Positions 9,758-16,546 of a stretch of DNA of 22,079 nt are shown here, piece by piece (the first letter of the stretch is position 1; every line of letters begins with the position of its first letter). The stretch is from a virus. Both the position numbers and the translations under genes were made by a program. The stretch lies in the IMG/VR virus record IMGVR_UViG_3300022072_000152, positions 1 to 22,079 of that record. One strand, 5' to 3'. The notes under the pieces were generated by a model. That model was not told the origin of the DNA. It did not search any database and saw only the letters and a list, made by a program, of their open reading frames with translations.

Positions 9758-10176
9758 GCGCACATTTCTTCAACGAACTGGACGCCTCTATTTCTCACAA
9801 GCTAGAGGGAGGAGACTATATCCGCACAGTAACTCTTAATGAGGCGCTCGTCTTCTACACCGATAGCGGTGACGAAATTGAAGTGCCAGCAGGGTTCGAG
9901 AGTGACGGGGCAAGTGTCCCCAAGGCATTTTGGTCAAGGTTTCCACCCTTCGGTAAATACCTAGCCGCTGCGGTCGTACACGACCTCCTCTGCGTCCAAG
10001 GACACAAGTGCGAGTGCGTGTACGACTCTACAGAGGCTGCTGACATCTTTAAGCAGGCAATGCTCGTCTGTGGCGTCGGTAAGTTCAAGGCTTGGAAGAT
10101 GCACTTCGCTGTCAGATGGTTCGGGCCGAGGTGGACTAAGCGTCCGTCATCGTCTGATGTGTCACCTCAAAGTTAA
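9754..10176 (+). CDS. DUF1353 family phage protein
   Basis: A 140-residue protein matching the DUF1353 pattern: a beta-rich start (LVFYTDSGDEIEVPAGFESDGASVPKAFWSRFPPFGKYLAAAVVHDLLC), with hallmark FxSDGASVP, W, PP and HD motifs, followed by an Ala/Asp helix (STEAADIFKQAMLVCGV) and a C-terminal aromatic stretch (WKMHFAVRWFGPRW). The family is widespread in tailed phages near lysis and tail genes and has no established biochemical role. It overlaps the lipoprotein gene by ATGA. Its 3' end overlaps the convergent helicase gene by 41 bases, which closes the late rightward block. Confidence 0.85.
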   Translation: MSAHFFNELDASISHKLEGGDYIRTVTLNEALVFYTDSGDEIEVPAGFESDGASVPKAFWSRFPPFGKYLAAAVVHDLLCVQGHKCECVYDSTEAADIFKQAMLVCGVGKFKAWKMHFAVRWFGPRWTKRPSSSDVSPQS

Positions 10177-11464
10177 TCTGGGCGGTGGCTAGGATACCGT
10201 TGCGGCACTTGACCTGTTGCACGGTCTGCCAATACACGTTCTGGCCATCCTCCTGCACCTGACCGCTCTTGTTGCGCTCTGGTCGCTCCAGTCTCCAGAA
10301 GATCGTGGCGTCATTGAAGATCGCACGTGACTCTCTGGCAAATCCATCCTCATTGAGCTGAGTGCCGCTAAATGCAACACACTTGAGGCTCTTCTGTAGG
10401 CGCTGGATGCCACCTGACATTGCGGCCACCTCAGTCTCACGGTTGCCCTTAGTCTTACCCGATGAATCCATGATCTGGATATAGTCAACGCATAGGATGT
10501 CAATCTTGCCACACTTCGCAGCAATCTCACGGCAGCGTGTCTGCACACCTTCAAGGGATTCAGGTGAATCGAACAGGAACAAGCGCTTGTCGGTCTCTTC
10601 CTTGAGCATATTCAAGCACCTGAGGTACAGGGTCTGCTTCCTACCTTCAACTGTGTTGAGAGGCTGGCGTGTGTTGATCTTAGCGTAGGAGCAGGCTGTG
10701 TTGTGCCAGAAGTCTTCCTTAGATGACTCAAGCAGGAACGCAGCGATGACCCAATCCTTGTGCTTGAACAGGTTGTGGACGATGATCTGACGTTTTAACG
10801 CTGACTTACCACGTGAGGATGGGGCTGCGATAATGATGTTGTTGTCCTTCCGACGGCGGTCGATGTAGCCGAGGGTCTCGTCGAGCTGCTTCATGCCAGT
10901 GTGGACACGAAACTCCTCAGGGATACGCTCTTCCTCGCCAGACAGCTCCTTCATCTTCTGACCAATGAAGTCCACGATCTCCTCCTTGGCCGTCTTATCG
11001 TCGTCCGCAAGAGTGAGGGTAGATATCTCGTTCATCGGCTCAGAGATGGCCGACTTGATATCCTCAGAGGACGCCAGTGGCTTCTGGAGGTTCTCCAGCA
11101 TACTGCGTGTGGCGTGGATCATCTTACGCTGTAGGAACAGGTTCTTCACGTTGCGCATGGCTGATACCCATGTGGCCGTGTAGACCATTGGCAACGCCAT
11201 GAGCATCGACATCGCTGTGTCCACATCCATGCGGGCCTTGGCCATGTTAGCCTGAAGGACTGGCAGCACAGACAGCTCTTCGATATCTTGACCAGCATCG
11301 AACACCGAGCGGATGGACTCGAAGATGATCTGGTTGTCGGCTGAGTAGAACCAGTCCTTGGTAATACCTTCGCCAATGATCGAGGCTGCGTCGTGCTGTA
11401 GCATCTGTCCAAGGATTGTGTTCTCGGACTGGAGGCTGTGAGGGTGGTTGTTGGTGTTATTCAT
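10136..11464 (-). CDS. DnaB-type replicative helicase
   Basis: A RecA-fold helicase expected to form a hexameric ring and unwind the phage replication fork. From ATG 11464 it has 442 residues. Residues about 10-65 (HSLQSENTILGQMLQHDAA..., QIIFESI) are the DnaB N-terminal domain. The ATPase domain has Walker A as APSSRGKSAL with K220 (the usual first Gly is Ala), and Walker B as IDILCVDYIQIM with D327. TGMKQLDETLGYI marks the domain start. The frame extends upstream to 11563, but ATG 11464 is preferred: it is preceded by GAACACACAC, the typical leader here, it leaves a clean 22-base gap from the initiator gene, and the N-domain starts just after it. The 3' end overlaps the convergent DUF1353 gene. 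Confidence 0.93.
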   Translation of the reverse strand: MNNTNNHPHSLQSENTILGQMLQHDAASIIGEGITKDWFYSADNQIIFESIRSVFDAGQDIEELSVLPVLQANMAKARMDVDTAMSMLMALPMVYTATWVSAMRNVKNLFLQRKMIHATRSMLENLQKPLASSEDIKSAISEPMNEISTLTLADDDKTAKEEIVDFIGQKMKELSGEEERIPEEFRVHTGMKQLDETLGYIDRRRKDNNIIIAAPSSRGKSALKRQIIVHNLFKHKDWVIAAFLLESSKEDFWHNTACSYAKINTRQPLNTVEGRKQTLYLRCLNMLKEETDKRLFLFDSPESLEGVQTRCREIAAKCGKIDILCVDYIQIMDSSGKTKGNRETEVAAMSGGIQRLQKSLKCVAFSGTQLNEDGFARESRAIFNDATIFWRLERPERNKSGQVQEDGQNVYWQTVQQVKCRNGILATAQINFEVTHQTMTDA

Positions 11465-11486: not shown

Positions 11487-12230
11487 TTAGCTCCAGACAG
11501 TAGGTTTGGAGATCTTTCGTTGTGCTGTGGTGTGTTGGTGACTCCAGTTTGATGCCTTGTCAAGCTCTCCGCTCAAATTATTCAAAAGAGTTGAGAGAGT
11601 CTTGCGGGCGTAGGTCTTATCCTGCGGTGCAGCATAGAAGTCTTCTAGCTCAGTCCACTCACGGTCGGTCATGTCAGCTACGATACCTTTGGCGGATGCC
11701 CAAGCGGATAGCTCAGCCTTGTCCATGGGAGTCGTGACACGTTTACCGAATAGCTTCTCGATGCGAAGTTGATCTTCAGATTTGAAAGGAATAGACCTCT
11801 CTTTTATATTTGAGTTTTCTATCTGTGTTTTATCATTTGGTATAGGTTGGACAGAACTGGTTAATCGATTGGACAAATCTGGTGTATCGATTGGACAAAT
11901 CTGGTGTATCGATTGGACAGAATTGGTTAATGAGTCTAGGAGCGGGCTAGAGTACCATTTGGTCTTATCGTACCCAGCCTTATTGTAGCAGCCAGACTCA
12001 ATTGCACCCTGTCCTTCTAGGCTTAAGAGTATCCTTGCGATCTTACGCTCTTTCCAAAATGGAAACAGTTCAGCGAATGCTGATGCAGAGTTGAATGTCC
12101 AAACCTTACCGTCATGGATATTACTGCCATTAGCCTTATTCTTAGCTAGCCAGAACAGGAGATTGTGAAGCATCACAGCCTCGTCGAGTCCGTATTGAAC
12201 TGCGTGTTGAGTGTTGAATGAGTAGTTCAT
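11487..12230 (-). CDS. Phage replication initiator (winged-helix, O/DnaD-like) containing origin iterons
   Basis: A 247-residue protein upstream of the helicase. Residues about 1-75 (YGLDEAVMLHNLLFWLAKNK..., GKVWTFNSASAFAELFPFWKERKIARILLSLEGQGAIES) form the winged-helix domain of phage replication initiators and replisome organisers that start MNYSFN...A...GL.EA. Residues about 100-129 are a low-complexity linker coded by four DNA iterons. The C-terminal part (EDQLRIEKLFGKR..., AELSAWASAKG, LEDFYA, RKTLSTLLNNLSGELDKA) is helical and could contact the helicase. By analogy to lambda O, it would bind the iterons in its own gene and recruit DnaB. It starts two bases after the HNH gene stop, so the leftward genes are one operon. 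Confidence 0.78.
   Translation of the reverse strand: MNYSFNTQHAVQYGLDEAVMLHNLLFWLAKNKANGSNIHDGKVWTFNSASAFAELFPFWKERKIARILLSLEGQGAIESGCYNKAGYDKTKWYSSPLLDSLTNSVQSIHQICPIDTPDLSNRLTSSVQPIPNDKTQIENSNIKERSIPFKSEDQLRIEKLFGKRVTTPMDKAELSAWASAKGIVADMTDREWTELEDFYAAPQDKTYARKTLSTLLNNLSGELDKASNWSHQHTTAQRKISKPTVWS
11785..11842. other. A/T-rich stretch beside iterons, candidate DNA unwinding element
   Basis: Directly downstream of the iterons in the sense of the initiator gene lies an A/T-rich tract (read on the minus strand: AAATGATAAAACACAG, then AACTCAAATATAAAAG). Iterons followed by an A/T-rich tract is the order found at the lambda origin, where the tract melts. The assignment is by position and composition only. 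Confidence 0.5.
11845..11932. repeat. Four tandem 22-bp iterons, candidate replication origin
   Basis: Units at 11845-11866, 11867-11888, 11889-11910 and 11911-11932 are head-to-tail with no spacer. The core of each is TTGGACARAWYTGGTKWAT; units 2 and 3 are identical, and units 1 and 4 are nearly so to each other. The period of 22 is not a multiple of three, so the encoded peptide does not repeat in frame; the repetition is therefore selected at DNA level. GATT and AATC give each central unit a small dyad. Location inside the initiator gene matches lambda-type origins. Confidence 0.85.
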
Positions 12231-12232
12231 GA

Positions 12233-12751
12233 TTATTTAGCTCCGTGTAGAGGGTGGTAGCCGTATTTGACCTCAGCGGCCTTGCGTACGGCAGTGGCTT
12301 TCGCTAGGGTCTTAAATGTACCGAGGGCAAGGTTCTTGCCTTCCGCTCTAATGCGAACCCTCCAAGTTGTTGCCTTCTTTCCTGCGTACGCGATAACCCC
12401 AGAAACGCCTGTCTTATTTGTTTTTCTCAACGAGTTGTTTTTGGCCTGATCTTCGTAGGATGCATCTCGAAGGTTAGACAGTCTATTATCTAGCTTGTCG
12501 TGATTAATGTGATCTACCGTCAAATTGAAGTGCGGTGTGATGATCTTGTGGATTTGCTTCTGTTTTCCATTGAAGTTTGTCTGTGCGTAACCTGCTCCAT
12601 TGTCGGAACAGCGACCAATTCCTCGGTCAAGTAAATCAAGCCAGACGTCGAGGTCTATCTTCATCTCCGCCTTGGGGAACTTTTTAGTGGAGATATCGAC
12701 TACTGCCATTGTGCCGACTTGCTTGTATGTGTTGAACATTCTCTTTTTCAT
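12233..12751 (-). CDS. HNH endonuclease with AP2-type DNA-binding domain
   Basis: A 172-residue protein, first gene of the leftward operon. The middle has the HNH core: DHINHDKLDNRLSNLR with the paired D-H, the following N of HDKLDNRLSNL, and the later N of AKNNS. It is followed by an AP2/ERF-like DNA-binding fold (KTGVSGVIAY..., TTWRVRIRAEGKNLALGTF, EAVRKAAEVKYGYHP-like end). This HNH plus AP2 order is that of free-standing homing endonucleases in phages. They cut at a specific site in relatives lacking them and so spread their own gene. Whether it also has a role for this phage is unknown. The leader CCCACATAGATT before ATG is part of an inverted repeat described separately. Confidence 0.88.
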   Translation of the reverse strand: MKKRMFNTYKQVGTMAVVDISTKKFPKAEMKIDLDVWLDLLDRGIGRCSDNGAGYAQTNFNGKQKQIHKIITPHFNLTVDHINHDKLDNRLSNLRDASYEDQAKNNSLRKTNKTGVSGVIAYAGKKATTWRVRIRAEGKNLALGTFKTLAKATAVRKAAEVKYGYHPLHGAK

Positions 12752-12754
12752 AAT

Positions 12755-12810
12755 CTATGTGGGCCAAAAAAAGGCCGCCCCAGTTTAAGCTCTAGGACGG
12801 CCTCACATAG
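12755..12810 (-). promoter_or_regulatory. Outer inverted repeat enclosing the leader terminator
   Basis: On the minus strand CTATGTGAGGCC (12810-12799) can pair with GGCCCACATAG (12765-12755): a 7-bp outer stem, one bulged A, and GGCC/GGCC. The 5' GGCC is also part of the inner terminator stem, so the two pairings compete. The 3' arm ends three bases before the HNH start codon. It can form only in RNA that has read through the terminator. Confidence 0.5.
12766..12802 (-). terminator. Rho-independent terminator in the leader of the leftward operon
   Basis: Read leftward: GGCCGTCC (12802-12795), a 14-base loop, GGGCGGCC (12780-12773), then seven T (12772-12766). The 8-bp stem has one G-U pair. 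It lies between the leftward promoter (TSS near 12871) and the first gene at 12751, so it would produce a leader RNA of roughly 105 bases unless relieved. Confidence 0.72.
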
Positions 12811-12877
12811 AGTGTTCATTAATTAGACGAACGGAAAGGTCTGTAAATCTCAGCGGCTTAAAGCGGATTAGAACACC

Positions 12878-12906
12878 ATTAAGCACTAGCTGAATCGGGC
12901 TGTCAA
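12878..12906 (-). promoter_or_regulatory. Leftward promoter for the replication operon
   Basis: On the minus strand a perfect -35 TTGACA (12906-12901), a 17-base spacer and CTTAAT (12883-12878, four of six matches to TATAAT). The predicted start is near 12871, inside the tandem repeat AGCGGMTTA, which could be an operator. Only this promoter candidate precedes the HNH, initiator and helicase genes. Confidence 0.6.
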
Positions 12907-12915
12907 GCGTATTTG

Positions 12916-12952
12916 AAAATAAAACAGCGCCACCCCCGAAAGGATGACGCTG
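12916..12952 (-). terminator. Rho-independent terminator insulating the leftward promoter
   Basis: Leftward RNA folds CAGCGTCATCC (12952-12942) with GGGTGGCGCTG (12935-12925) into an 11-bp stem with two G-U pairs and a six-base loop, followed by TTTTATTTT. It lies just behind the -35 of the leftward promoter, so it stops any leftward transcript arriving from the early region. Confidence 0.75.
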
Positions 12953-13028
12953 AACTATGATAACCGAACGACACACACTTGCCGTAACTCAGAGAATGAC
13001 AGCCATCTCACCTCGGTCAATAAGTTTT

Positions 13029-13065
13029 TTTTCACTTTTATTCGATTTAGGGGTTGACCTATATA
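13029..13065 (+). promoter_or_regulatory. Repeated 37-bp promoter element, copy 1
   Basis: The element begins TTTTCACTTTTATTCGATTT, continues AGGGGTTGACC and ends TATATA. It is 36/37 identical to 15641-15677. A T-rich upstream part resembling an UP element precedes TTGACC (13054-13059). The best -10 at 16 bases is TAAGTT (13076-13081), not canonical. It precedes the small gene at 13134 by a guanine-poor leader. It is interpreted as an early/middle rightward promoter or the site of a phage-specific activator. Confidence 0.6.
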
Positions 13066-13133: not shown

Positions 13134-13403
13134 ATGAAGAACTTCACACAACTACTCACCAAACTCCGCTCGGACATCAAAGATGCATCCGACCGTCACG
13201 AACTCAGCGACCTCATGGAAGCACTCGAAGCAATCAATGAGGAGTTTCACGACAACACCTCCGATGAGGAGTTCGCCATCTACAATAAATGCGAAGCTGA
13301 GGCTGCCACAGCCAGTCGCTTCCTCGCCGACGAATACGCTCAAGAAGAGCGCGAAGAAATGATCGATCAAATGCGATACGAGTCATTCAGCTCACAACGA
13401 TAA
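13134..13403 (+). CDS. Small acidic helical protein, unknown function
   Basis: An 89-residue product, first gene of the rightward early block. It is highly charged and helical (LTKLRSDIKDASDRHELSDLMEALEAINEEFH), with an acidic C-terminal half ending EEREEMIDQMRYESFSSQR, probably coiled coil. The frame is open back to 12957, but ATG 13134 is chosen because it follows the guanine-poor leader ACAACCAAAAAACACACATT and lies downstream of the promoter element. No known family is recognised. Acidic small early proteins are often host-takeover factors or DNA mimics, but nothing here proves that. Its last four codons form the start of a 25-bp repeat. Confidence 0.7.
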   Translation: MKNFTQLLTKLRSDIKDASDRHELSDLMEALEAINEEFHDNTSDEEFAIYNKCEAEAATASRFLADEYAQEEREEMIDQMRYESFSSQR

Positions 13404-15636: not shown

Positions 15637-15640
15637 ATTA

Positions 15641-15677
15641 TTTTCACTTTTATTTGATTTAGGGGTTGACCTATATA
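15641..15677 (+). promoter_or_regulatory. Repeated 37-bp promoter element, copy 2
   Basis: Same element as 13029-13065 with one substitution (TTTGATTT for TTCGATTT), starting five bases after the resolvase stop. TTGACC is at 15666-15671; at 16 bases the -10 would be CATTGT, weak. Sequence beyond TATATA is unrelated to copy 1, so the conserved part is the upstream block and -35. It precedes the gene at 15744. Confidence 0.6.
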
Positions 15678-16012: not shown

Positions 16013-16039
16013 CTACGGGGCGCAGCATCCTACACTGCA
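16013..16039 (+). repeat. 27-bp post-stop repeat, copy 1
   Basis: CTACGGGGCGCAGCATCC followed by TACACTGCA, nine bases after the stop of the 86-residue gene. Identical 27 bp recur at 16520-16546. GCAG and CTGC could form a weak 4-bp stem. Confidence 0.85.
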
Positions 16040-16519: not shown

Positions 16520-16546
16520 CTACGGGGCGCAGCATCCTACACTGCA
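16520..16546 (+). repeat. 27-bp post-stop repeat, copy 2
   Basis: Identical to 16013-16039, seven bases after the stop of the 148-residue gene. The bases between stop and repeat are also similar (TAATCCACTCA versus TAACCCATTC), so the real homology is a little longer. Confidence 0.85.

Follow-up and report, generated by a model that had tools for sequence, protein, structure and literature searches.

A conserved, structured leader with a promoter-proximal terminator ahead of the HNH endonuclease and replication genes of an uncultured phage

The leftward operon and its leader

The window, by which we mean the whole 22,079-base virus record that was analysed, comes from a podovirus-like phage carrying head-tail connector, terminase, tail spike, Erf, RusA and SSB genes. 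Its leftward operon contains three genes, encoding an HNH endonuclease, a replication initiation protein or DnaD-like helicase loader and the DnaB replicative helicase (Table 1), and the rightward operon starts at 13134. The HNH protein is known here from its HNH_3 and PHROG 99 matches. In favour of its ATG at 12751, the relative IMGVR_UViG_3300025876_000019 (L002/L031) has a start at the collinear position, and the gene is missing from the corresponding position in L004. In the same relative the N-terminal domain of the helicase loader is replaced and its C-terminal part is kept, which marks a mosaic joint within the gene.

Table 1. Features of the leftward operon and its leader region (positions in the window)
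Feature	Position	Strand	Remarks
dnaB, DnaB replicative helicase	10136..11464	-	third gene of the operon
Replication initiation / DnaD-like helicase loader	11487..12230	-	second gene of the operon
HNH endonuclease	12233..12751	-	first gene of the operon
Outer stem, 3' arm CACATAGA	12754..12761	-	ends at the HNH start
GGCC	12762..12765	-	suggested alternative partner of the 5' GGCC of T2; GGCA in the relative, competitor lost
U7 tract (T7 in DNA)	12766..12772	-	expected 3' end of the terminated leader RNA; U5 in the relative
Terminator T2 hairpin, loop AGCTTAAA	12773..12802	-	four changed pairs, all kept in the relative
Outer stem, 5' arm TCTATGTG	12804..12811	-	pairs with the 3' arm
Hairpin P2, GUUCGU/A(U,C)GAAC	12814..12832	-	G-U to G-C in the relative
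5' block of the leader RNA	12835..12871	-	37 nt unchanged in the relative; begins at the predicted +1
Hairpin P1, loop UUUAAGCC	12846..12869	-	predicted from RNA folds; no variation
-10-like CTTAAT	12878..12883	-	4/6 match; 17-nt spacer; TTTATT in the relative
-35 TTGACA	12901..12906	-	6/6 match; identical in the relative
Terminator T1	12925..12952	-	12-bp hairpin, UUCG loop, then TTTTATTTT; 5' of the leftward promoter

The most prominent element ahead of the HNH gene is the hairpin T2, in which GGCCGTCCTAG pairs with CTGGGGCGGCC over 11 bp (12802-12792 with 12783-12773, minus strand). When both strands of the 22-kb window were scanned for hairpins followed by U tracts, T2 ranked as the most stable site (-20.5 kcal/mol, U7) and the leftward T1 as the second (-19.0 kcal/mol), and these are the two strongest sites of the window. 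The first-pass annotation had described an intrinsic terminator with seven U before the first gene; it is real, and its stem is longer than the 8 bp claimed. T1, the unchanged 5' block of the leader and a 7-nt complementarity of that block to the T2 loop are additional to that annotation. With a G+C-rich hairpin and an immediate U tract, T2 has the sequence hallmarks of an intrinsic (Rho-independent) terminator. An upstream terminator is not a general companion of HNH genes, since none of the 15 HNH loci has one within 180 nt. Several marine phage HNH genes (L016, L020, L023, L026, L027) carry a hairpin some 30-40 nt upstream of their ATG, with stems that change in a compensatory manner (TAGACGG/CCGTCTA, TAGTCGG/CCGACTA, TGGTCGG/CCGACCA).

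Upstream of the leader lies a candidate leftward promoter of the sigma-70 type (about 12906-12878). A transcript starting near 12871, as proposed previously, is plausible in view of the perfect -35 and the 17-nt spacing, but the proposal is weakened by an imperfect -10, which is poor in both phages (4/6, no A at position 2). With such a -10, which lacks the key A, the promoter is off the list from a strict promoter scan. In the relative the -35 and the spacing are kept, the promoter region is 77% identical and the spacer varies. T1 lies directly upstream of the -35, and its U tract may also act as an A/T-rich upstream element of the promoter. Roseophage DNA (H56-H58) is similar to the leader region only over T1 and the few bases that follow, at a site behind a tape-measure gene; this match was taken as a generic terminator. 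Further into the operon, a sequence search found no leftward TTG-to-TA...T (sigma-70-like) promoter between 12760 and 11400; a weak internal candidate at 12513-12485 is not conserved in the relative. Similarly, the sequence between the hairpin and the HNH gene holds no promoter-like site that could serve as a bypass.

Other repeated sequences occur elsewhere in the window. A 40-nt repeat, 95% identical and ending in TTTAGGGGTTGACCTATATA, is found at 13026-13065 and 15638-15677 on the plus strand, ahead of two rightward gene blocks; two copies are also present in the relative, and none is expected by chance. By eye it resembles the promoters of SP6-type phage polymerases, and a PF00940 search for a phage RNA polymerase gene was negative, though with an uninformative control set. 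A 27-nt exact direct repeat, CTACGGGGCGCAGCATCCTACACTGCA, is located at 16013-16039 and 16520-16546.

Conservation of the leader in a related phage

Relatives were sought by scanning viral contigs and genome contigs, and the only other true copy of the leader in them is that of IMGVR_UViG_3300025876_000019, which has the same gene order. Further 17-20-mer matches (L032, L041-L047) are isolated chance matches with no surrounding similarity. A covariance model of the leader likewise recovered only the two known copies among the loci scanned; its sole weak match in 10 virus records (G006, 63162-63248, 21 bits) lies inside an ORF and has no terminator. In Rfam no family matches the leader at the gathering threshold, the weak matches being far below the cut-off.

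Between the two phages the leader (12871-12752) is 91% identical, and its 5' 61 nt are 95% identical, whereas identity is 74% at fourfold sites in dnaB and only 62% across the HNH gene (binomial P ~2e-6 for the excess in the leader). These differences indicate that the leader is constrained, and not through travelling with the HNH gene. In T2 no pair is lost despite differences at five stem positions (U-G to U-A, C-G to U-A, C-G to U-G and U-G to C-G); in T1 a C-G to A-U double change and a U-G to U-A change also leave every pair intact. Across T1, T2 and P2 together there are nine stem substitutions, none of which breaks a pair, and two pairs are changed on both sides. When these substitutions are placed at random, all pairs survive in 0.15% of trials (P ~0.0015). 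For T2 alone P is 0.12, so the strength of the covariation lies in the three hairpins together; as it comes from two sequences and few events, the evidence is modest. P1 offers no covariation test because it does not vary. The position of the terminator and the conserved stems with their compensatory changes support the earlier proposal of a leader RNA of about 105 nt ended by a promoter-proximal terminator.

The outer stem and competing interpretations

The two arms that flank T2 pair perfectly over 8 bp, a length that shuffled versions of both flanks reach in 0.5% of cases (chance ~0.005). The first-pass annotation had noted this pairing as CTATGTG/CACATAG, ending three nucleotides before the start codon, together with a GGCC that could compete for the 5' GGCC of T2, and had read the arrangement as an attenuator or RNA switch controlling readthrough. 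Its observations hold: the shared GGCC and the perfect 7-8 bp outer repeat exist in the sequence, and the HNH ATG lies where the distance places it. The switch itself is not supported and is rejected here as very improbable. The polymerase reaches CACATAG and the adjoining GGCC only once it has passed the U tract, hence the 3' arm does not exist when termination is decided and the outer stem cannot decide it. In addition, the two helices are compatible, as the minimum-energy folds of both phages contain T2 and the outer stem together, one nested in the other. The forced GGCC/GGCC form is 4.6 kcal/mol worse in the window and is lost in the relative. No mutually exclusive antiterminator that would form before completion of the terminator was found at T2. 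The same check applies generally, as a pairing whose second arm follows the U tract cannot be an antiterminator. Riboswitch and attenuator leaders also have a terminator in the 5' leader, but here no antiterminator arises from RNA upstream of the U tract and there is no Rfam match.

The order of transcription, the nesting and the loss of the GGCC imply that the outer stem can act only on readthrough RNA or as DNA. Its role could thus be start-site caging, processing or stability of the readthrough RNA, or a function of the DNA. The stem is invariant between the two phages, which gives it no support from covariation. A role as DNA would mean that a repressor or the HNH protein uses the inverted copies of TTTAAGC, of CTATGTG or of both as operators. 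The window has no copy of TCTATGTG outside the inverted pair of the outer arms, TTTAAGC likewise forms an inverted pair, and I-TevI is a known autorepressor (PMC2988022). Operators would, however, leave the compensatory changes in the stems unexplained, and a spacing of about 45-65 bp between the arms is unusual for a single operator; this reading is quite improbable.

It is possible, though rather unlikely, that the terminated RNA of about 105 nt functions in its own right, as a trans-acting phage small RNA with its own promoter and terminator, and that the operon is served by incidental readthrough. Conservation is highest from the predicted +1 onwards, unpaired segments included. Three hairpins together with a terminator are typical of such RNAs, and the leader is kept while the adjoining HNH gene has diverged to 62%. 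Its best predicted duplexes with the start regions of phage genes are, however, no better than those of shuffled sequences (23/60, 57/60), no Rfam family reaches the gathering score, and the search revealed no second leftward promoter from which dnaB could be transcribed. A more elaborate proposal concerns TTTAAGC in the P1 loop (12862-12856), which is complementary to GCTTAAA in the T2 loop (7 nt, chance 0.012). The leader would then be a new phage non-coding RNA in which the P1 loop UUUAAGCC pairs with the T2 loop AGCUUAAA in a 7-bp loop-loop contact, and either this contact controls termination in cis or the RNA acts in trans, setting the level of the replication proteins. Neither copy varies, so that the complementarity counts only as a lead, and the proposal is doubtful.

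Promoter, structured leader and terminator also precede early or replication genes in the PL-nutL-tL1 region of phage lambda and in putL of HK022. By analogy, the leader could be a nut- or put-like antitermination element, at which the polymerase would be enabled to pass T2 by a bound factor of phage or host origin, or through modification by the RNA alone. A structured and conserved RNA that follows the promoter and is itself followed by a strong terminator and the replication genes fits that layout, and CGCTTTAA matches lambda boxA, CGCTCTTA, at 6/8 positions by eye. On the other hand, the resemblance is weak, no boxB-like hairpin follows CGCTTTAA by eye, and no antiterminator gene was identified among the proteins scanned. 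Rfam and the phage collection likewise revealed no sequence relation to the lambda or HK022 leaders. Antitermination of this kind is unlikely here.

Proposed control of the HNH-replication operon

The interpretation that we favour, at roughly even probability and from sequence comparison and folding, is that T2, as a terminator close to the promoter, holds down expression of the HNH-replication operon and sets free a leader of about 105 nt, and that the outer stem cages the HNH start on the readthrough mRNA. The leftward promoter would produce a leader RNA starting near 12871, and most transcripts would end at T2 (12802-12766), releasing the structured RNA. The remaining readthrough fraction would express the HNH endonuclease, the loader and DnaB at a reduced and possibly factor-controlled level. 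If indeed no promoter lies between T2 and dnaB, then dnaB transcripts must pass T2, which would set or gate the expression of the operon. A point against this interpretation is that the strength of the U tract differs between the phages (U7 versus U5).

On the readthrough mRNA the T2 hairpin would sit inside the 8-bp outer stem, the base of which is 3 nt from the HNH AUG. Most genes of the window lack a Shine-Dalgarno sequence, and their starts are preceded by A/C-rich, unstructured stretches such as ACCACCAACACACA. A helix so close to the HNH AUG is therefore likely to lower translation, and the outer stem would keep the endonuclease low, the phage's other unlinked genes mostly starting in open A/C-rich leaders. 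The start codon itself is mostly open in the fold and has no Shine-Dalgarno sequence. The mean unpaired probability of the HNH start region is 0.58 when folded in its full context, as against roughly 0.3 to 0.99 for other starts folded in shorter windows, and the structure at this start thus exceeds that at other starts only moderately. The other half of the first-pass proposal, that access to the start site may be controlled on the readthrough mRNA, is a plausible possibility.

Hairpins are known on several phage endonuclease genes, including I-TevI, I-TevII, I-TevIII, segB and Aeh1 mobE, while T4 mobE and segF carry terminators, with about 30% termination at mobE; in seg43 of Aeromonas phage 25 a very stable hairpin directly precedes the RBS (reviewed in PMC2988022). 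The present leader resembles these muffled homing endonuclease genes in having a stable start-site hairpin and/or an mRNA-reducing intrinsic terminator before a phage endonuclease gene, and it resembles seg43 in the hairpin just upstream of the translation start. In T4 and Aeh1, however, the hairpins sequester a Shine-Dalgarno sequence and a late promoter bypasses them, whereas here there is no Shine-Dalgarno sequence and no bypass promoter was found. The terminators of mobE and segF lie inside the 5' coding region, and T2 lies in the leader.

To conclude, the leader is real and structured, is conserved in one relative and ends in a terminator close to the predicted promoter; it would be a case of ordinary gene-volume control built from known kinds of parts. 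That it is kept while the adjoining endonuclease diverges points to selection on the RNA itself. If the favoured interpretation is correct, an uncultured phage would use a terminator and a start-site hairpin to quiet both the helicase operon and the HNH endonuclease that it carries as a passenger, as T4-type phages do with their homing endonucleases.
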